Positions 5,567 through 52,322 of a stretch of DNA of 64,000 bases are shown piece by piece. Source of the DNA: a virus; the IMG/VR virus record IMGVR_UViG_3300018080_000131, positions 1 through 64,000 of that record; one strand, 5' to 3'. A model generated the notes under the pieces. It was not told the DNA's origin, searched no databases, and saw nothing but the letters and a program-made list of their open reading frames with translations. Numbering within the stretch: position 1 is the first letter of the stretch; each line of letters begins with the position of its first letter. Position numbers and translations under genes: made by a program.

Positions 5567-7066
5567 ATGAAAGAATGTGAAACTTGTGAAAGTTGTTATA
5601 CTTGTGAAAAAAGTGTTATTTCAAGTATAACAAAAGAACAATTAGATGAAGCAAAAAAGAAAGGTGGTATTCCTTCTGAATGGTTGAGAGATTTAGATTG
5701 TGAAAACTGTTTTTCTTGTCAGAAGTGTGATACAAGTCAAGAAGTTGACAAATGTGGAAACTGCTATGCTTGTCAGAAGTGTGATACTCACCAAGGAAAT
5801 GCTGGTGATGGGTTAAATAATTGTGAAAATTGTTTCTCTTGTCAGAAGTGTGTTTCTCAGCAAGCTAATTGTGAAAATTGCTATACCTGTCAGGTTGGTG
5901 ATGTTTCTAATGATTCTTGTAAAGGTGGTGTTTGTAAGGTAAAGAAGGATGAGGATTATGTTAATAATATAACCTATTTCTTATTTCCAACAAATAATTG
6001 TAACTTGAGATGTACTTATTGTTATGCTACAAAAACTCCTAAAGAAATGGATGCTGAAACCTTAGCTCAGGCTGGAGAATTTATACTTGGTCCAGAGGAA
6101 GAGAGGAATCCTGGGAGAAGGGTTAATATTCAGTTTTTTGGTGGAGAACCTATGTTGAAATGGAATATGCTAACTACATTTATTGATTGGATGAATGAGG
6201 AAGCAAGAAAAAGATTAGGAAGAAAGATTAATTGGGGTATGACCACAAATGGTACTCTTTTAAATGAAGAAAGAATTAAGTGGATGAAGGAGCATAATTT
6301 AAGACCTTTATTGAGTGTTGATGGTAGAAAGGAAACTCATAATAAGCATAGGATTTATGCTAATGGAAGAGGTTCTTTTGATGATATTCCTTTTGATACT
6401 TTTTTGAAATATTTTCCTAATCCAGAATTAAGACCAACAATTCTTCCTGATACTGTAGAAGGTTGGATTGAAGATTTGTATTGGTTTCATTCTAAGGGAT
6501 GTTATAATGTTGCTACAGAGGTTGCTTATGAGGCTGATTGGGATGATGAGGCTATGGCTAAGGCTTGGAGAACTTATGATAAGATGGGAGATATTTATAT
6601 TCAATTTAGGAAAGCTGGGAAGAAAGATTTTTGGATGAAGTTTATAATGGATGGTTTGAATACTTTAGGTATAGAAAGACAAACAGGAACAGTATGTGGA
6701 ATTGCAAGAAATACTGTAGCCATTGATGCTCATGGTTGGCTTTATGCTTGTCAGAGATATGCTGATTTTAATAATCCTGATTTGAAGATTGGAGATATTT
6801 GGGAAGGTTGGGATTATGACAAGTTGAAGGAATGGAGAAGTTTGAGAAGAGAACATATGTATCCTGACCCAAGAAGTGGTTTTGATTGTGAAACTTGTCC
6901 TGCTAGATGGAAATGCAGAGGTGGTTGTAATGCTATGAATTATCAATGTAATAATGATAGAAAAATGATATTGGAAAATCATTGTAAGTTTCAGAGAATG
7001 TGGGCTTTAATAACATTAAGAGTGTTGTCAGCAACAGGAGAGTTACATAGGAAAATTAGAAGATAA
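5567..7066 (+). CDS. Radical SAM/SPASM peptide-maturase-like enzyme with N-terminal Cys repeats
   Basis: 499 residues. Residues 1-135 carry about 21 Cys in repeats of the form C-E-N-C-F-S-C-Q-K-C, related to the repeats of the two preceding proteins. The radical SAM motif CNLRCTYC (C145, C149, C152) binds the 4Fe-4S cluster that cleaves S-adenosylmethionine. FFGGEP at about 189-194 is the glycine-rich SAM motif. The C-terminal SPASM region has C377, C395, C441, C444, C450 and C454 (C-x2-C-x5-C-x3-C), which bind auxiliary clusters. Relatives include anaerobic sulfatase maturases and sactipeptide, ranthipeptide and QhpD-type enzymes that form thioethers on Cys. I infer that it modifies the Cys arrays of its neighbours, perhaps also its own. 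Such enzymes are oxygen-sensitive. Confidence 0.88.
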   Translation: MKECETCESCYTCEKSVISSITKEQLDEAKKKGGIPSEWLRDLDCENCFSCQKCDTSQEVDKCGNCYACQKCDTHQGNAGDGLNNCENCFSCQKCVSQQANCENCYTCQVGDVSNDSCKGGVCKVKKDEDYVNNITYFLFPTNNCNLRCTYCYATKTPKEMDAETLAQAGEFILGPEEERNPGRRVNIQFFGGEPMLKWNMLTTFIDWMNEEARKRLGRKINWGMTTNGTLLNEERIKWMKEHNLRPLLSVDGRKETHNKHRIYANGRGSFDDIPFDTFLKYFPNPELRPTILPDTVEGWIEDLYWFHSKGCYNVATEVAYEADWDDEAMAKAWRTYDKMGDIYIQFRKAGKKDFWMKFIMDGLNTLGIERQTGTVCGIARNTVAIDAHGWLYACQRYADFNNPDLKIGDIWEGWDYDKLKEWRSLRREHMYPDPRSGFDCETCPARWKCRGGCNAMNYQCNNDRKMILENHCKFQRMWALITLRVLSATGELHRKIRR

Positions 7067-13775: not shown

Positions 13776-13891
13776 GATTCATAGCTGGTTTGTGTTTACT
13801 TTGGTTTTTCATTTGGGTATGGACAGTACTTGATTTAATGGATGCTGAAGGAACAGGTGAAATAAGAATTTTTAAAAGGAGAAGAAAATGA
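13772..13891 (+). CDS. Tiny membrane protein with TTG start
   Basis: 39 residues if TTG at 13772 is used. Residues 4-21 (IAGLCLLWFFIWVWTVL) form one transmembrane segment, followed by a basic tail. It overlaps the previous stop as TTGA and the next start as ATGA, which suggests translational coupling at both ends. Without expression data the start codon is uncertain. Confidence 0.4.
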   Translation: MRFIAGLCLLWFFIWVWTVLDLMDAEGTGEIRIFKRRRK

Positions 13892-14334
13892 AACAAAGAA
13901 GGTTTGACCAAAAGAATTTAATTAGGTTGGCTGAGGAGTATGTGAATACTTCTGATGATACTGTATTTGAGAGATTAATGGCTGAGGAGCTAGATGCTTT
14001 AATTGGAATACAGTTGGGAAAGAATTATATGAGTGTAAGGGAGTTTTGGGAAGATATGAAGCAGGAAGTTATGATGTACTTGTGGAAGAATAGGGAAACA
14101 GTGAAGAGTACAAAGAGTAGAAGTTATTATCAGTTTTATTATATTAGAATTAGAGGTAGATTAAATCATATTGTAACTAACCAAAATAGGACAAATAGAA
14201 ACTCTTATAAAACAGGAATGAAAATATCATCTTATGATTCTCAAAATGATGCTGTAATAGCATTTGATAATTTATCATTAAAAGATAAAAAAGACTTAGG
14301 ATTGCCAGAATATTCTGATGAAATTGATATGTAA
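13888..14334 (+). CDS. Sigma-factor region-2-like protein
   Basis: 148 residues. The core DMKQEVMMYLWKNR followed by YYQFYYIRIRGRLNHIV has the shape of sigma70 region 2 (acidic-Gln helix, then F-x-x-Y-x-x-x-I-R-x-R). The C-terminal half of the GIY-YIG protein at 48534 is clearly a paralogue (shared LGKNY, DxxxW..DM+Q(D/E)V, LWKNR.TV). There is no obvious region 4. It may act as a phage transcription factor, perhaps on the repeated 28-bp element just downstream. This is inference from pattern similarity only. Confidence 0.5.
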   Translation: MKQRRFDQKNLIRLAEEYVNTSDDTVFERLMAEELDALIGIQLGKNYMSVREFWEDMKQEVMMYLWKNRETVKSTKSRSYYQFYYIRIRGRLNHIVTNQNRTNRNSYKTGMKISSYDSQNDAVIAFDNLSLKDKKDLGLPEYSDEIDM

Positions 14335-14360
14335 ATGTGGTACTATATAGATGAAAGGAG
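14333..14360 (+). promoter_or_regulatory. 28-bp repeated element, copy 1 (core GTGGTACTATATAGATGA)
   Basis: Begins in the stop codon of the sigma-like gene and ends with AAGGAG. Near-identical copies occur at 26406-26433 and 54436-54463, always directly after a stop codon. TACTATATAG could be a phage-specific promoter core. Confidence 0.6.
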
Positions 14361-17166: not shown

Positions 17167-17397
17167 GTGCAAATAAACAGAAGTAATGAATGGATAAAGG
17201 AAAAAGCTTTTGAAATTACTCAAATTACTATGATTGAAACTGCTACCAAATTTATGTTAACTCTGCTGGCTGATATAAAATTTGGTGAAATAAAAACAAA
17301 GGATGAGGAATCTAGAGATGCAATTAAAAATCTTAAAAGAGTATTGGAATGTGATAAGAGGAAAGGTAAGGAGTCTAGTTTATTATCCAGAATCTGA
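17167..17397 (+). CDS. Small helical protein with GTG start
   Basis: 76 residues from a GTG preceded by GAAGGAGAAACTG. Helical and charged. Its 3' third overlaps the sigma-like gene in another frame. It may be translated mainly to couple expression of that gene. No motif recognised. Confidence 0.5.
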   Translation: MQINRSNEWIKEKAFEITQITMIETATKFMLTLLADIKFGEIKTKDEESRDAIKNLKRVLECDKRKGKESSLLSRI

Positions 17398-17842
17398 AGA
17401 TATATTTAGTGAAATACTTCTTGCATTACATGAGATTGAGTTTAAAGGTAATAGTGATGTTGGTACTCTTATTTACAAAATAACAAAGAATAAAATTACT
17501 GACTATTTAAGAAGGAAGTATAAAATGAAAGAAGTTCAATATGATAGTTATTTTATGAAAAATTATGATGATGATTTTTATTGGTCAGAACCAGAACATA
17601 ACAGAGTATTATATTACAATGAAAAGGATGGAATTAAAGAGATTGAAGACAGGTTGCATGTTCAGTACTTACTCAGTTTGATTAAGAATGAGAAATATAG
17701 AAAGGCTATTATATTAAGATATTTTAATGAATGGGAAACAGAAGAGATAGCTAAATATTTTTCTGTTACATCAAAAACAGTTAATGATTATGTCAGAAAA
17801 GGCATAAATCAAATAAGAAAAATGGAGGGATTAAATGGTTGA
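17318..17842 (+). CDS. Sigma-70-like phage RNA polymerase sigma factor
   Basis: 174 residues from the ATG with GAGGA 8 bp upstream. ATG 17303 and GTG 17351 are alternatives. Residues 30-75 (DIFSEILLALHEIEF...LIYKITKNKITDYLRRKY) match sigma region 2. Residues 125-170 (EWETEEIAKYFSVTSKTVNDYVRKGINQIRK) match the region 4 helix-turn-helix that reads the -35. Length fits an ECF-like two-domain sigma. It probably directs host RNA polymerase to middle or late phage promoters, for which the repeated elements in this window are candidates. Confidence 0.75.
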   Translation: MQLKILKEYWNVIRGKVRSLVYYPESEDIFSEILLALHEIEFKGNSDVGTLIYKITKNKITDYLRRKYKMKEVQYDSYFMKNYDDDFYWSEPEHNRVLYYNEKDGIKEIEDRLHVQYLLSLIKNEKYRKAIILRYFNEWETEEIAKYFSVTSKTVNDYVRKGINQIRKMEGLNG

Positions 17843-32071: not shown

Positions 32072-32356
32072 ATGGGGTTATATAATTGTTTTGGTGAAAG
32101 AGGTATCCAGTTAAAGGCTGAGGATTATGATGAACTGATGATAAAGAGTTATAAGATTGGAGATAAAATTAATCTTCCTGATGGTGTTTATGTTGCTAAT
32201 GAAGGAATTGTAGTTATTTATAGAGGTACATTTGTTGCTGAGGTAGATTCTATATATGATAAATATGGTGGAATTATTAATCTTAGTAATGAACTGGAAA
32301 AAAGAAATCCCATAGCACAGGTTATTAAGGAATTTAATAATGAAAATAAGGAATGA
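32072..32356 (+). CDS. Small beta-rich protein, unknown
   Basis: 94 residues (MGLYNCFGERGIQLKAED..., VYVANEGIVVIYRGTFVAEVDSI). SH3-like beta pattern. Its last codons and stop form one arm of a 12-bp stem with sequence before the UvsX gene. Confidence 0.55.
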   Translation: MGLYNCFGERGIQLKAEDYDELMIKSYKIGDKINLPDGVYVANEGIVVIYRGTFVAEVDSIYDKYGGIINLSNELEKRNPIAQVIKEFNNENKE

Positions 32357-32407
32357 GATTAAAAATTGCTTATCAGAAATGATTATGAGAAAAGTATCTC
32401 ATTCCTT
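32348..32407 (+). promoter_or_regulatory. 12-bp stem leader before the recombinase gene
   Basis: AAGGAATGAGAT (32348-32359) pairs perfectly with ATCTCATTCCTT (32396-32407). Inside, ATCA-GAAA-TGAT forms a GNRA-capped hairpin. It spans the stop codon of the preceding gene and ends 21 bp before the UvsX/RecA start. It may be a translational or termination control element. Confidence 0.5.
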
Positions 32408-32428
32408 TACTAAATATTTGGAGTTATT

Positions 32429-46997: not shown

Positions 46998-47090
46998 GTT
47001 GAAATATGGGTAAAATATACCTGTATAAGGGTGTTAGAGGCTTTCTAAGAGAAGAACTATATAATAGTAATATGTTTACATTAGTAGAAA
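46998..47090 (-). repeat. Intergenic repeated element, copy C (- orientation)
   Basis: Matches copy D (52061-52152) along its length (AAATATG-GTAAAATATACC, TGTATAAGG, TCTAAG, TATAATA, TATGTTTACATTA). Its reverse complement matches copies A and B. In element orientation TTAGA-AAGCC-TCTAA forms a hairpin. Confidence 0.75.
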
Positions 47091-47097
47091 TAGAAAG

Positions 47098-47364
47098 ATG
47101 CTTAGGATTGGTCTAATGAAAAGAATAAGTGGTATTGATATTAGTAAATGGGGTATTTGGTTTAATTATCAGTTTTGGATTGACAAAGAAAAAAGAATAA
47201 ATGAGGAAGACGGTTTGCTTTATGTGTGGATATGGAAAAGAAAGAAAAAATATAGAAGATTCAAATACTGTTCTTCTATATCTCAGGGTTTGTTTAAGAG
47301 CTTGAAAGAGGTAAGGGAATTTTGGGTTGATTATAATAAATTTGTAAGATGGTATAAAACATGA
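47098..47364 (+). CDS. Small basic aromatic protein, unknown
   Basis: 88 residues from 47098. An internal ATG at 47116 has AGGA 9 bp upstream and may be the true start. Trp/Tyr/Lys-rich (IWFNYQFWIDKEKR, FWVDYNKFVRWYK). Contains a CpG at 47211, one of only six. Overlaps the primase start by 4 bp. Confidence 0.5.
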   Translation: MLRIGLMKRISGIDISKWGIWFNYQFWIDKEKRINEEDGLLYVWIWKRKKKYRRFKYCSSISQGLFKSLKEVREFWVDYNKFVRWYKT

Positions 47365-48275
47365 AAACAATAGATGAGATTTTTGAAGGTGTTTGGGTTA
47401 GTGATGGTGAGTTTTTAATTCAGTGTCCTTATTGTAATGACCATCCTACTCATAATCATTGTTATGTGAATATCAAAAAAAGTGTTTTTAATTGTTTTTA
47501 TTGTGGAGAATCAGGAACATTAAAAAAGCTGTTAAAGGATTTTGGTGATGATGAGAAGGTTAAGACGATAAGAAGAAGGCATGGGGTTAAAGAAAGACAA
47601 AAACATAAAGAAATATCAATTGATGAGTTTAATAGATTTAATCCAGTAACAGGAGCTAATGGTACTAATGATTTATTAGCATTGAAATATCTTGAGAATA
47701 GAGGATTAAGACCATTTGAGATTAGGAATTATGATATTAGGTATGCTTCTTCAGGTAAGTATTTTGGAAGGGTGATTATTCCTATTTATGAGGAAGGTGA
47801 TTTGGTTTGTTTTATTGCAAGAAGTTTCTTAGATATGATTGAACCTAAATATTTATTTCCAAAGCATGGAGAAACTAAATTAACTACAAATGAAGCATTA
47901 TTTGGGTATGAGAAATCAAGAGATTATTGGTCAAGCAATCATGTTATTGTAGAAGGTGTTTTTGATGCTATAAAGATAAATCAAACAGATAATTTTAAAG
48001 GTATAGCTATTATGAGCAAGCATTTAAGTGAAGGTCAGAAATATAAGCTGTTGAAGCTGGAAGGAACTTTTTATATAATGCTAGATTCAGATGCTAAGTT
48101 AGATTCTTTGAAGGTTGCTGGAGAATTATCTAAGTATGGAAAAATTGTGAAGGTTGCGTTTATTAAAAGTAAAGACCCAGGAGAAGCTAGTTTGAAGGAA
48201 ATAAGAAAGGCTTTGAGACAAGCTGAGCCTTTTTCTTATGAACTAGAAATGAGAATAAAAATGGAGGATTGGTAA
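47361..48275 (+). CDS. dnaG: DnaG-type primase (zinc finger plus TOPRIM)
   Basis: 304 residues. C-P-Y-C..H-P-T-H..F-N-C-F-Y-C-G at 22-50 is the CHC2-type zinc finger. V-I-V-E-G-V-F-D-A-I near 195 is the TOPRIM Glu motif and F-Y-I-M-L-D-S-D-A-K near 236 the TOPRIM DxD-like motif. Shorter than cellular DnaG and without a helicase-binding C-domain, like many phage primases. Makes RNA primers for the DnaB-type helicase fork. It contains CpGs at 47566 and 48157. Confidence 0.8.
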   Translation: MKTIDEIFEGVWVSDGEFLIQCPYCNDHPTHNHCYVNIKKSVFNCFYCGESGTLKKLLKDFGDDEKVKTIRRRHGVKERQKHKEISIDEFNRFNPVTGANGTNDLLALKYLENRGLRPFEIRNYDIRYASSGKYFGRVIIPIYEEGDLVCFIARSFLDMIEPKYLFPKHGETKLTTNEALFGYEKSRDYWSSNHVIVEGVFDAIKINQTDNFKGIAIMSKHLSEGQKYKLLKLEGTFYIMLDSDAKLDSLKVAGELSKYGKIVKVAFIKSKDPGEASLKEIRKALRQAEPFSYELEMRIKMEDW

Positions 48276-48286
48276 GGCAGGTAAAA

Positions 48287-48553
48287 ATGCTAAAAATAAC
48301 AGTTGAGATTATTCCTTTTGGAATAAAAGATATGAAGAAAAGGCTTGGCGAGATATATATTACTAATGATGGTACTGGAAATGAAGAAATAGGAAATTAT
48401 AATTATACAATTAAAACTGAAAGAAGACAAGATGAGAAGATTGGTGATGAGTTAAAAGGGAGAGTAGAGAACTTCCAAAGAAGAAAGTGTAATTTTTGGA
48501 AGCTGTTGTATTTGATTTTGAAGGGAGTTTATGATGGGAGAGAAAAAATATAA
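48287..48553 (+). CDS. Small protein, unknown
   Basis: 88 residues from ATG 48287. Begins L-K-I-T-V-E-I-I-P-F-G, a strand shared with the protein at 30274, and has a basic C-terminus (FQRRKCNFWKLLYL). CpG at 48349. Overlaps the GIY-YIG gene. Confidence 0.5.
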   Translation: MLKITVEIIPFGIKDMKKRLGEIYITNDGTGNEEIGNYNYTIKTERRQDEKIGDELKGRVENFQRRKCNFWKLLYLILKGVYDGREKI

Positions 48554-49358
48554 AATTTATTTGATTATAAATAAAATTAATGGAAAAACATATGTTGGAA
48601 TGACTAGTAGGACAGTTAAACAGAGAGTAGAGGGTGGTCATTTTACTAAAAATGCTAATATTCTGTTACAAAGAGCTTTAGATAAATATGGAAAAGATAA
48701 TTTTGAATATGGTACTTTAGAAGTTTGTGGTTGTGAAGAGGATGCTGTTGAAGCTGAAAAATTTTGGATTGCTACTTTTAATAGTATTTCTAATGGATAT
48801 AATATAGATGAAGGTGGTACTTTTCCAAGTGAATCTATGAGGGATAAAAGTAGTGAAGGACTTAGAGAATATTGGAAAAGAGTTACAGGTAAGAAATCAG
48901 TAAAAAGAATAAATATTAAGAAAATAAATGAATTAACACAGAAATATGTTGATACAAAGGATGAAAAAATTTGGGATGATTTAATTTCAGAATTGTATAT
49001 TATTATTGATATTTTACTTGGGAAAAATTATACAAGAATAAAAACTCTTTGGGATGATATGAGACAAGATGTAATAATTAACTTGTGGAAAAATAGAAGA
49101 ACTGTTGGTGATACCTGTTCTCATAGTTTTTATAATCATTATTATAATAGAATTAGAAAGGGGTTAAATAGAGCTATAAAAAAATATGAAGGTGAAAAAT
49201 ATGAAGAAAGTGATTATTTAATTTATAAGGAGAAAAAACAACCTATGTATGATTTTTTAGATATGAATGTTAAGTCTATAGAAGATTTAACTGATGAGGA
49301 AAAATTAGAAGTTGGTTTGGATACTGAAGGAAATATGTCAGAAGATTATGAAGAGTAA
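48534..49358 (+). CDS. GIY-YIG nuclease domain fused to a sigma-region-2-like domain
   Basis: 274 residues from the second of two adjacent ATGs. Residues 7-90: K-I-Y-L..K-T-Y-V-G-M-T-S-R..R and later acidic/Asn positions (E-A-E-K-F-W-I, G-Y-N) match a GIY-YIG nuclease, as in homing endonucleases. Residues 120-215: LLGKNY, LWDDMRQDVIINLWKNRR and HYYNRIRKGLNRAI are paralogous to the sigma-like protein at 13888. A free-standing homing enzyme may have been captured by a sigma-like gene, or this may be a new bifunctional protein. The sequence is open across the junction with no frameshift. Confidence 0.7.
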   Translation: MGEKKYKIYLIINKINGKTYVGMTSRTVKQRVEGGHFTKNANILLQRALDKYGKDNFEYGTLEVCGCEEDAVEAEKFWIATFNSISNGYNIDEGGTFPSESMRDKSSEGLREYWKRVTGKKSVKRINIKKINELTQKYVDTKDEKIWDDLISELYIIIDILLGKNYTRIKTLWDDMRQDVIINLWKNRRTVGDTCSHSFYNHYYNRIRKGLNRAIKKYEGEKYEESDYLIYKEKKQPMYDFLDMNVKSIEDLTDEEKLEVGLDTEGNMSEDYEE

Positions 49359-49938
49359 TATTGATAAACCTAATAAAGAAGCTATAGAGGCTTTTATAAA
49401 AGATTTTCCTAATTCTGTAGTTTCTGATTTACTTATGTATTTTGGAGAGGATGTTGTTGTGAGATTTGTGGAATTGTATTCTGGTCAAAAGATAAATATT
49501 CCTTCAGTGAATAGTATTTGGATAAGTTACAGAAATAGGAAGGTTGTTGAAGAGCTTGATAAAAAAAATACAAAAGAAGTTAGGGAGATGTTGGCTGATA
49601 ATTTTGGTTTGGAAGATAAAGAGGTAACAGATATATATGCATATTGTAAAGGAAAACATATAACAAGAGTTAAACATACTACTATAAATAGGATTGTTGA
49701 TGTTATATTTAGGAAGAATCTTAGGAAGTATCATAAAGCTGTTATGAAAATGACACAAGGAGCAAGTACTGATAGTACACAAGACCCAGAAATTTTGTAT
49801 TTAGTTGAAGAAGCTAAAAGAGAGTTTTTGTCTAATTGTATGGAAGATTTGAATGAACATTTGGTAATTTGTGGTAGAAAAGACAAGAGAGATAAATGTG
49901 TTGAGCTATTAATGAAGAAAATAGATGAAGATATTTGA
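49348..49938 (+). CDS. Mor-like DNA-binding protein upstream of terminase
   Basis: 196 residues from ATG 49348. Residues 18-65 (LLMYFGEDVVVRFVELYSGQ, then INIPSVNSIWISYRN) resemble the Mor/Mga-type phage activator N-region (L-G..F-G-G..I-Y-I-P). Helices follow. Position directly before terL makes a small-terminase (DNA-recognition) role possible. Both roles are inference. Confidence 0.5.
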   Translation: MKSNIDKPNKEAIEAFIKDFPNSVVSDLLMYFGEDVVVRFVELYSGQKINIPSVNSIWISYRNRKVVEELDKKNTKEVREMLADNFGLEDKEVTDIYAYCKGKHITRVKHTTINRIVDVIFRKNLRKYHKAVMKMTQGASTDSTQDPEILYLVEEAKREFLSNCMEDLNEHLVICGRKDKRDKCVELLMKKIDEDI

Positions 49939-50008: not shown

Positions 50009-50329
50009 ATGGAAAATTTAATAGAGAAAAAACCAAGAAATATCATACAAGCTTTTGAAGAAGAGGAGTTTTTTGGTAAGTCTTTTCCAGGTAAGAAGAA
50101 AGGAAGCTGGGATAAGTGGAAAAGCTTCTTGAAAATTGTATATGGTATCAGATTAAACAAAAGGGACAGGGAAGTTTATGAGAGATGTACTGGTAGAAGC
50201 ATTGATGATATTCCTAAAGGTGGTTTTGAAGAGTTTTATGGGATTGTAGGTAGAAGAGGTGGTAAAAGTACTATTTCTTCATTTATTGCTTCTTATGAGG
50301 CTTTATTTGGTGGTTGGGAAAAAGTATAA
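50009..50329 (+). CDS. terL: Terminase large subunit, N-terminal part (ends at in-frame TAA)
   Basis: 106 residues. The adenine/Walker A region F-Y-G-I-V-G-R-R-G-G-K-S-T at about 81-93 is typical of large terminases, as is the C-T-G-R-S before it. The frame stops at TAA 50327-50329 just where terminases continue with Y-L-A-P-G-E. The frame after the stop (A-P-G-E-T-G-S-V-F-I-V-A-P-D) continues terminase sequence without shift. Either a nonsense mutation, a sequencing or assembly error, or readthrough/reinitiation. Alone this piece cannot be a functional packaging motor. Confidence 0.8.
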   Translation: MENLIEKKPRNIIQAFEEEEFFGKSFPGKKKGSWDKWKSFLKIVYGIRLNKRDREVYERCTGRSIDDIPKGGFEEFYGIVGRRGGKSTISSFIASYEALFGGWEKV

Positions 50330-50350
50330 GCTCCTGGTGAAACAGGAAGT

Positions 50351-51565
50351 GTGTTTATTGTTGCTCCTGATAAAAAGCAAGCTGGAATTATTTTCAAATA
50401 TTGTAAAGCTATGATTGCTGATAATTTTAAAGATATGATTGTGAGAGATACTACAGAATTGATTAGCTTGAAAAATGGAATTGATATTGTGATAATGCCA
50501 GCTAGAATGACAGGTTTGAGAGGTTTTTCAACTATTTGTGTTATTCTTGATGAAATTGCTTTTTTGAAAACAGAGGATTATGCTAATCCAGCAGATGAGA
50601 TTATTACAGCATTAGAACCTTCTTTGAAGGCAAAAGCTAAGTTGATTGGGATTTCTACTCCTTATGGAAAATTTGGTTATTTCTATGATATGTTTAAAGA
50701 GCATTATGGAAAAAGAGGTTCTGAAATTTTAGTTTGGCAAGCTCCAACAACATATATGAATCCAAGGTATGATGTAAGTAAAATCAGAAGAGCTAAAAGA
50801 AGGGATTTGTCAAAGGCTACAGCAGAATATGAGGCTACATTTAGAGAAGATGTAAGTTCTTACATTTCAGAAGATGAGCTTTTGGGGTTAACAGAATTTG
50901 GTATAAAAGAAAGGTTACCAGAAGAGGATATGCCTTATTATGCTTTTGTTGATGTTTCTGGTGCTAGGAAAGATTCTTTTACTTTTGCAATTGCTCATGT
51001 TGAAGAGGATTTTGTAGTTTTAGATGTTATTTATGAAAAAGTTCCACCATATAATATTGAAAATCAGCAACAGATTTGTGCTGATTATTTGAAGAAATTT
51101 GGAATTAGGCATATTGTTGGTGATAAATATGGTGGTGATTTTCCAGTTCAAGGATTTAAGAGGAAGGAGATTCAGTATTATCAAAGCCAAAATCCTAAGT
51201 CTGATTTATATCTTGATTTTCAGATAGTTTGTAATTTGAAAAAAGTGAAATTGCTTGATAATGAAAGAATGAGAAAGCAGTTTATTATTTTAGAAAGGAA
51301 AACAGATGCTTCAGGAAAAGATTCTGTAATTAAGCCAAGAAATACTCATGATGATGTTGCTAATTCAGTTGCAGGAGCAGTAGTAATGGCATATAGGAGT
51401 ATTTCAACTAGACCTTCTGAGGAAGAGCTAAAAAGCAGGATGTTTAGGAAAGTGCATAAAAGAGGGTTGAATTATGATGAGGAATGGGCTAATATTTTGA
51501 AAGAAGCTGAAAAAGAAATGGAAGAGCAGTTAGCTAGAAGAAAAAAAGGAGAAGGAGAAAAATGA
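50351..51565 (+). CDS. terL: Terminase large subunit, remaining ATPase plus nuclease part
   Basis: 404 residues from GTG 50351, in the same frame as the preceding piece ((50351-50009) is 342, divisible by 3). V-I-L-D-E-I-A-F at about 75 is Walker B. Y-A-F-V-D-V-S-G near 195, V-G-D-K-Y-G-G-D near 255 and T-H-D-D-V-A-N-S near 335 are the RNase H-like nuclease acids. CAGGAAGT lies before GTG, so reinitiation is conceivable. Terminase cuts and packages phage DNA. The structure genes that normally follow are not in this window. Confidence 0.85.
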   Translation: MFIVAPDKKQAGIIFKYCKAMIADNFKDMIVRDTTELISLKNGIDIVIMPARMTGLRGFSTICVILDEIAFLKTEDYANPADEIITALEPSLKAKAKLIGISTPYGKFGYFYDMFKEHYGKRGSEILVWQAPTTYMNPRYDVSKIRRAKRRDLSKATAEYEATFREDVSSYISEDELLGLTEFGIKERLPEEDMPYYAFVDVSGARKDSFTFAIAHVEEDFVVLDVIYEKVPPYNIENQQQICADYLKKFGIRHIVGDKYGGDFPVQGFKRKEIQYYQSQNPKSDLYLDFQIVCNLKKVKLLDNERMRKQFIILERKTDASGKDSVIKPRNTHDDVANSVAGAVVMAYRSISTRPSEEELKSRMFRKVHKRGLNYDEEWANILKEAEKEMEEQLARRKKGEGEK

Positions 51566-52054: not shown

Positions 52055-52060
52055 TTTATA

Positions 52061-52152
52061 GGCTGAAATATGAGTAAAATATACCTGTATAAGGCTATTA
52101 GAGCTATTCTAAGCCAAAAACTTTATAATACAAGTATGTTTGCATTAATGGA
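52061..52152 (-). repeat. Intergenic repeated element, copy D (- orientation)
   Basis: Longest match to copy A after reverse complementing: ATACTTG, AGTTTTTGGCTTAGAA, CTTATACAGGT and ATGCAA are shared. In element orientation GGCTTAGA-ATAGC-TCTAATAGCC forms a hairpin (GGCT/AGCC and TAGA/TCTA). Confidence 0.75.
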
Positions 52153-52193
52153 GTTTTAATAAGGCTTAAAAATGATTTGGAGGTGATTAAATA

Positions 52194-52322
52194 ATGGCTA
52201 AAAGAGGTGTTCCTAAAAGAGATGGTTCTGGAAGAGGAACTAGAGCAAATAGAGGAAGAGGTGGATGTTCTTCAACTAAAGTTAGAGGACAGGGAAGAAG
52301 TGGAAACAGAGGAAGGAGATAA
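52194..52322 (+). CDS. Small Gly/Arg-rich protein (VPKRDGSGRG type)
   Basis: 42 residues: MAKRGVPKRDGSGRG followed by R-G-R-G-G-C-S. Short proteins with a PxRDGSGRG...GRGGC signature are frequent in phages but uncharacterised. Ribosome binding site GGAGGTGATTAAATA. Confidence 0.55.
   Translation: MAKRGVPKRDGSGRGTRANRGRGGCSSTKVRGQGRSGNRGRR

Follow-up and report, generated by a model that had tools for sequence, protein, structure and literature searches.

We found that a single open reading frame of an uncultured virus encodes an I-TevI-type GIY-YIG domain, a linker of ~30 residues and a complete region-2-only sigma factor in one polypeptide. The frame lies at 48534-49358 on the + strand of the window, by which we mean the whole analysed stretch of 64,000 nucleotides from a contig of 101,074 bases. 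An earlier note made from the sequence had proposed a GIY-YIG nuclease fused to a sigma-region-2-like domain, and this is borne out by the single frame, by Pfam for the nuclease and by NCBIfam, hhalign and fold comparison for sigma region 2. The combination of a GIY-YIG nuclease and a complete miniature sigma factor in one protein was found nowhere else in the collections and papers searched. The paper searches yielded no GIY-YIG-sigma fusion, which does not by itself prove its absence elsewhere, and the word "sigma" is absent from the 2006 survey of GIY-YIG architectures (PMC1564403). If real and expressed, the fusion would point to a way in which selfish homing nucleases could attach themselves to a regulator that the phage cannot do without, and possibly to a transcription-targeted nuclease.

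Gene structure and nuclease domain

The frame codes for 274 amino acids, or 275 if the alternative ATG at 48531 is used, and the sequence AAGGGAG precedes the ATGATG at its start. The linker covers residues 94-123 (48813-48902, + strand; GGTFPSESMRDKSSEGLREYWKRVTGKKSV). It looks NUMOD3-like by eye only, and no Pfam model matched it up to E=10. The whole protein had no match to Pfam NUMOD or HTH models up to E=1, while the same scan recovered NUMOD3 and HTH modules in L001, a related GIY-YIG homing enzyme. Inspection of the junction revealed no nearby in-frame start codon and no usable one out of frame, so a misread stop codon of a separate sigma gene cannot simply explain the fusion. The closest in-frame ATG (M102 at 48837) has no close Shine-Dalgarno sequence; translation may start internally at this codon.

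The N-terminal 90 residues had been noted for their GIY-YIG layout, and Pfam placed PF01541 on residues 6-90 (48549-48803, + strand) with E=2.1e-11 and 44.4 bits against a cut-off of 22.6. The domain was also located by the whole-record scan, the I-TevI catalytic domain matched it in phmmer (E=2.9e-9), and Foldseek matched the fusion model to 1mk0/1ln0 with a probability of 1.00. Residues Y9, Y20, R31, E75 and N90 align with the catalytic positions of I-TevI, R31 being assigned by eye as the aligned solved I-TevI chain has a substitution there. The first nuclease motif reads KIY, not GIY. Judging from these alignments, the nuclease half is predicted to be an I-TevI-type GIY-YIG domain with intact catalytic residues.

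The fusion thus shares the catalytic domain and matching catalytic residues with I-TevI and the T4 Seg enzymes, but their DNA-binding part is made of NUMODs, a zinc finger and HTH, whereas the fusion has a sigma-region-2 domain. We detected no group I intron around the gene with Rfam at the gathering threshold (one unrelated chance match, E 0.013), so an intron-encoded origin is unsupported. The T4 Seg genes are likewise free-standing and interspersed among the genes of the phage, some of them for head and replication functions (PMC2988022).

The sigma-like domain

The sigma-region-2-like domain spans residues 124-222 (48903-49199, + strand), as seen from BLASTP to the free-standing protein encoded at 13888, from TIGR02985, from hhalign and from the structural model. 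Together with the 13888 protein and two free-standing relatives from other phages it belongs to a family of four. Alignments place its motif WDDMRQDVIINLWKNRR (49050-49100, + strand) opposite DLTQDVLIKLWKNR of the ECF sigma factor L015, and the family motif W-[DE]-D-M-[KR]-Q-x-V-x-x-x-L-W-[KE]-N-R corresponds to region 2.2. In known sigma factors, region 2.2 is the part that binds the beta' coiled coil.

Among the NCBIfam models, TIGR02985 (sigma-70 family) was the top sigma match for all four members. The E-values were 2.3e-5 for the 13888 protein, 0.014 for the fusion half alone and 2.3e-4 and 0.0018 for the free-standing relatives, with all scores far below the model's cut-off of 126 bits, so none of the proteins belongs to the TIGR02985 subfamily itself. 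Pfam Sigma70_r2 hit the 13888 protein with E=0.0073, also below cut-off. Profile-profile comparison by hhalign linked the family to 31 genuine sigma factors, all from one Bacteroidota genome, with E=3e-6, or 6e-7 when the fusion was left out. Decoys failed in the same comparison, the reversed family reaching E 0.17 and 40 column-shuffled families at most ~6% probability.

The nearest cellular relative is L015, an ECF sigma factor of Membranihabitans marinus encoded beside a FecR-like gene. It was the only cellular protein returned by a tblastn-confirmed scan of ~85,000 genomes, and other sigma factors of the same genome also match the family profile. ECF sigma factors (TIGR02985/TIGR02937; L015) resemble the family in the region 2.2 motif, where DLTQDVLIKLWKNR matches DMRQDVIINLWKNR, but they also possess region 4. 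No region 4 match was obtained for the fusion or the 13888 protein, as opposed to the protein encoded at 17303 (Sigma70_r4_2, 2.2e-8), and the family is therefore region-2-only.

Regarding structure, the AF2 model of the 13888 protein matched sigma region 2 structures almost exclusively in the fold search. Only one of its five models was confident (mean pLDDT 72.6 vs ~50, mostly 77-94 through residues 10-100), and the AF2 runs used four-sequence alignments. The first row of the re-alignment (VIA) was T4 gp55 from its open complex (7d7c_F; Z 8.6, 106 aligned residues, rmsd 2.8 A), level with other rows such as sigma-E and AlgU. Middling Z values of ~8 are only suggestive for helical proteins and may partly reflect a common helical arrangement. 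Among viral structure models, the matches were mainly phage sigma factors. The model of the full fusion was poor (pLDDT 58.2); its sigma-like half is formed by helices and has sigma structure matches. A sequence search of PDB with the family profile gave chance matches only, so the link to PDB rests on fold comparison.

Both the profile-profile comparison and the structure prediction suggested in the earlier note thus came out on the side of sigma factors. The assignment to sigma region 2 is supported by the agreement of several lines: curated models, profile-profile comparison, fold and the cellular relative. It is very improbable that the C-terminal half is instead the helical part with which a homing enzyme binds DNA, only superficially like sigma factors, and the 13888 protein a derivative that lost its nuclease. 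PHROG families of homing endonucleases do align across most of the fusion (phrog_7168, residues 8-235), but no homing family was listed when the members, including the C-terminal half of the fusion, were scanned alone. Moreover, every family member matches sigma models, and the free-standing members of two phages have no nuclease. Rather than the ordinary homing-enzyme DNA-binding region that would have contradicted the note, with NUMOD3 or HTH modules, we found matches to sigma region 2.

The family is built like gp55, the late sigma factor of T4 (185 aa), and we do not claim that it is gp55. Both have a region-2-only architecture; regions 2.1-2.4 of gp55 correspond to residues 44-123 (PMC2988020). 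However, no sequence homology could be detected between them (hhalign probability 0.2% against the single gp55 sequence), gp55 is larger than the free-standing members (118-148 aa), and it is not fused to a nuclease, unlike the 48534-49358 protein. In 2010, gp55 was described as the smallest member of the sigma-70 family (PMC2988020). Uncultured phages that show no obvious relationship to T4 encode region-2-only sigma proteins shorter than gp55 beside their packaging genes, which makes gp55-style late transcription without region 4 testable outside the T4 group.

Paralogue and other sigma genes

The free-standing paralogue (13888-14334, + strand) encodes a region-2-only sigma-like protein of 148 aa, recognised by TIGR02985, by Sigma70_r2 below cut-off and by the AF2 model with fold search. 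The note had called the two proteins paralogous, and the relationship is far beyond chance: BLASTP aligned residues 124-215 of the fusion with residues 4-96 of the 13888 protein at 80.5 bits and E=1e-23, with 40 of 93 positions identical (43%). The shared motifs it had pointed out, LGKNY and D-M-[KR]-Q-[DE]-V...LWKNR, are present in both. As the match begins at residue 4 of the 13888 protein, a whole protein was fused and not a fragment. A search of the whole 101-kb record recovered only these two sigma-like copies. We rejected a recent duplication of the 13888 gene, as the DNA aligns over only ~157 bases with many mismatches.

A third sigma gene, at 17303-17842 (+ strand), encodes an ordinary ECF-type factor that has both region 2 and region 4; it matched TIGR02937 over the cut-off (1.3e-16) and Sigma70_r4_2.

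We also noted an exact 20-mer, ATGTGGTACTATATAGATGA, present in three copies in the window (14335, 26408 and 54438), of which the one at 14335 abuts the stop codon of the 13888 gene. It can be read as a mini-ORF (MWYYIDER...) that overlaps with the Shine-Dalgarno sequence of the next gene.

Gene neighbourhood and relatives

The contig carries phage genes for a family A DNA polymerase, DnaB-type helicase, RecA, SbcC, ribonucleotide reductase and primase as well as for terminase, portal, prohead protease and major capsid protein. Around the fusion, the order is primase, small gene, fusion, Mor-like gene and large terminase, all on the + strand. The DNA primase (47361-48275; phrog_47, 1.2e-46) is followed by the small gene (48287-48553; phrog_8231), whose 3' end overlaps the start of the fusion. 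The Mor-like gene (49348-49938; weak matches to Mor/late transcription activators, phrog_836, 4.2e-5; Mor PF08765, 6e-4, below cut-off) overlaps the end of the fusion, and its product could be a late transcription activator or, by position, the small terminase. These overlaps on both sides fit an operon. The large terminase subunit (50009-51565) contains one in-frame TAA at 50327-50329, which may represent a sequencing error, damage or readthrough. The position of this codon is shortly downstream of the Walker A motif (...FGGWEKV*APGETGSVFIVAPDKK...).

The search for unfused homologues, also suggested in the note, yielded free-standing members in two other groups of uncultured phages. One, of 118 aa (L010:8004-8360), is encoded ahead of genes for an endolysin, a metallophosphoesterase-like protein and the terminase; the other, of 124 aa (L014:3783-4157; L013/L014), upstream of a portal gene. 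Neither has a nuclease attached. In our phage, the matching place ahead of the packaging genes is held by the fusion and not by the 13888 gene. This shared position is the main reason to regard the sigma domain as the original occupant, to which the nuclease was added, and synteny with free-standing members beside packaging genes favours such a putative capture.

Searches for further relatives were less productive. Two degenerate DNA patterns of the region 2.2 motif retrieved from IMG/VR the same two phage groups and chance matches only, and the full fusion protein retrieved from IMG/VR only the GIY-YIG halves of NUMOD-type homing enzymes. The sigma half had no significant match in GenBank phages and plasmids, and TerL and the downstream gene, used as anchors for related phages, had no match. 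In the searched collections we found neither a close relative of this phage nor a second fusion, and there is no second fusion in the 101-kb record.

The fusion is thus known from one contig, and it might be a dead chimera, in which a homing gene and a sigma gene became joined by chance, or an artefact of misassembly, with the 13888 protein doing the work. The single record with no second copy would fit this, and the in-frame TAA of the adjacent terminase leaves room for sequence errors in the vicinity, or for recent damage. We nevertheless consider it decidedly unlikely. As shown above, a simple lost stop codon does not account for the junction, and the flanking overlaps fit an operon. Residues are conserved on both sides: next to the catalytic positions of the nuclease, the fused sigma domain retains 20 of 27 family-invariant residues, matching the free members (20 of 26-28), so it is not decaying. 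Third-position GC is similar in the two halves (0.10 and 0.15); the 13888 gene has 0.28.

Origin and possible function

The explanation to which we give about an even chance is that a homing nuclease joined a late-sigma gene, with the sigma domain still serving late transcription and the nuclease being a passenger. A free-standing homing nuclease gene would have landed directly 5' of a late-sigma gene which, as in two other phages, immediately preceded the packaging genes; both frames would then have become one, the sigma domain taking the place of the nuclease's own NUMOD/HTH tail. The fused sigma domain would dock on the beta' coiled coil of the host RNA polymerase and open a -10-like promoter of late genes without region 4, as T4 gp55 does, possibly with the product of the overlapping Mor-like gene as a partner. 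The passenger nuclease would cut alleles lacking it, by which the fused gene would spread. The phage retains the free-standing 13888 gene as well, and its product may be the working late sigma factor instead of the fusion.

Promoter searches bear on this account. We identified seven strong, near-identical promoter-like sequences of the TTGACA/TATAAT type, AAAAAAAGACTTGACAAA...TATATTATAAGTA, all on the + strand (window 9766, 39352, 55621, 56464, 57204, 61901 and 62876). None of this type was found in the structural region (63-101 kb), so the late genes probably use another promoter class. Matches to the T4-like late promoter TATAAATA were scattered over both strands with no pattern, and k-mer enrichment recovered host-type promoters only and no late motif. 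Regarding a sliding clamp, neither PF00712 nor PF02916 was detected in the 101-kb record, which is possibly a fragment, and the gp45 model stayed below cut-off in control genomes too.

The sigma domain might instead direct the nuclease by carrying the GIY-YIG domain to sites in a competing phage or satellite, either promoter DNA or RNA polymerase complexes. Similarly doubtful is a scheme in which the sigma module leads such an enzyme to RNA polymerase-promoter complexes, so that being transcribed would single out DNA for cutting, be it that of a competitor, a satellite or a fusion-less allele. We regard direction by the sigma domain as unlikely, yet as a serious rival since chimeric nucleases of the Odn type exist. 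Odn (ICP1 Gp88) is a direct precedent: like the fusion, it combines a domain of the GIY-YIG superfamily with a domain captured from another functional protein. Its DNA-binding domain is homologous to the replication initiator of a rival, and Odn cuts at the origin to which that initiator binds (PMC8263062). Odn differs in that it is of the T5orf172 type, has the reversed domain order and captured RepA_N rather than sigma; targeting has been proven for Odn, whereas targeting by the sigma domain is only a candidate role in the fusion. A directed nuclease would also agree with the missing Pfam matches to the usual NUMOD/HTH modules and with the second free-standing sigma copy, which frees the fused copy for another job. 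However, isolated sigma region 2 is a poor binder of double-stranded DNA and depends on the core polymerase, the location upstream of the terminase fits a late regulator, and there is no known target or rival element. For gp55, binding to RNAP is not highly specific (PMC2988020).

We see only a slim chance that the protein is a self-limiting homing enzyme, whose sigma domain would occupy or sense late promoters including its own, acting as an autorepressor or timing the enzyme's activity to late infection. I-TevI does repress its own late promoter via the DNA-binding part (PMC3943268, PMC2988022), but no promoter was identified beside the fusion gene and the parallel is one of analogy only.

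Other features of the phage record

An exact 15-mer, TATCAGAAATGATTA, occurs inside a predicted RNA fold in three copies just 5' of genes, at 32350-32412 of the window and at L083:12646-12714 and 17200-17272 (record 76146-76214 and 80700-80772). The genes that follow are recA, a spanin-like gene and the gene after the major capsid gene. The fold consists of an outer stem of 10-12 bp, which differs in sequence, an open stretch of ~12 nt on either side and, innermost, a hairpin of 4 bp capped by a GAAA loop; the window copy had no Rfam match. Short peptide-like frames are repeated in intergenic gaps (MGKIYLYKGVRGFLREELYNS..., MSKIYLYKAIRAILSQKLYNTSMFALMEF and MGKIYASKALRGFLS), at 46998-47097 and 52055-52206 of the window and at L083:1558-1661 (record 65058-65161). 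No tRNA was found in the 64-kb window, and a tRNA-Thr (anticodon TGT) lies just after the portal gene at L083:5729-5801. The phage also encodes radical SAM proteins and a glycosyltransferase-like protein (window 5567-7066; L084:1-4090).
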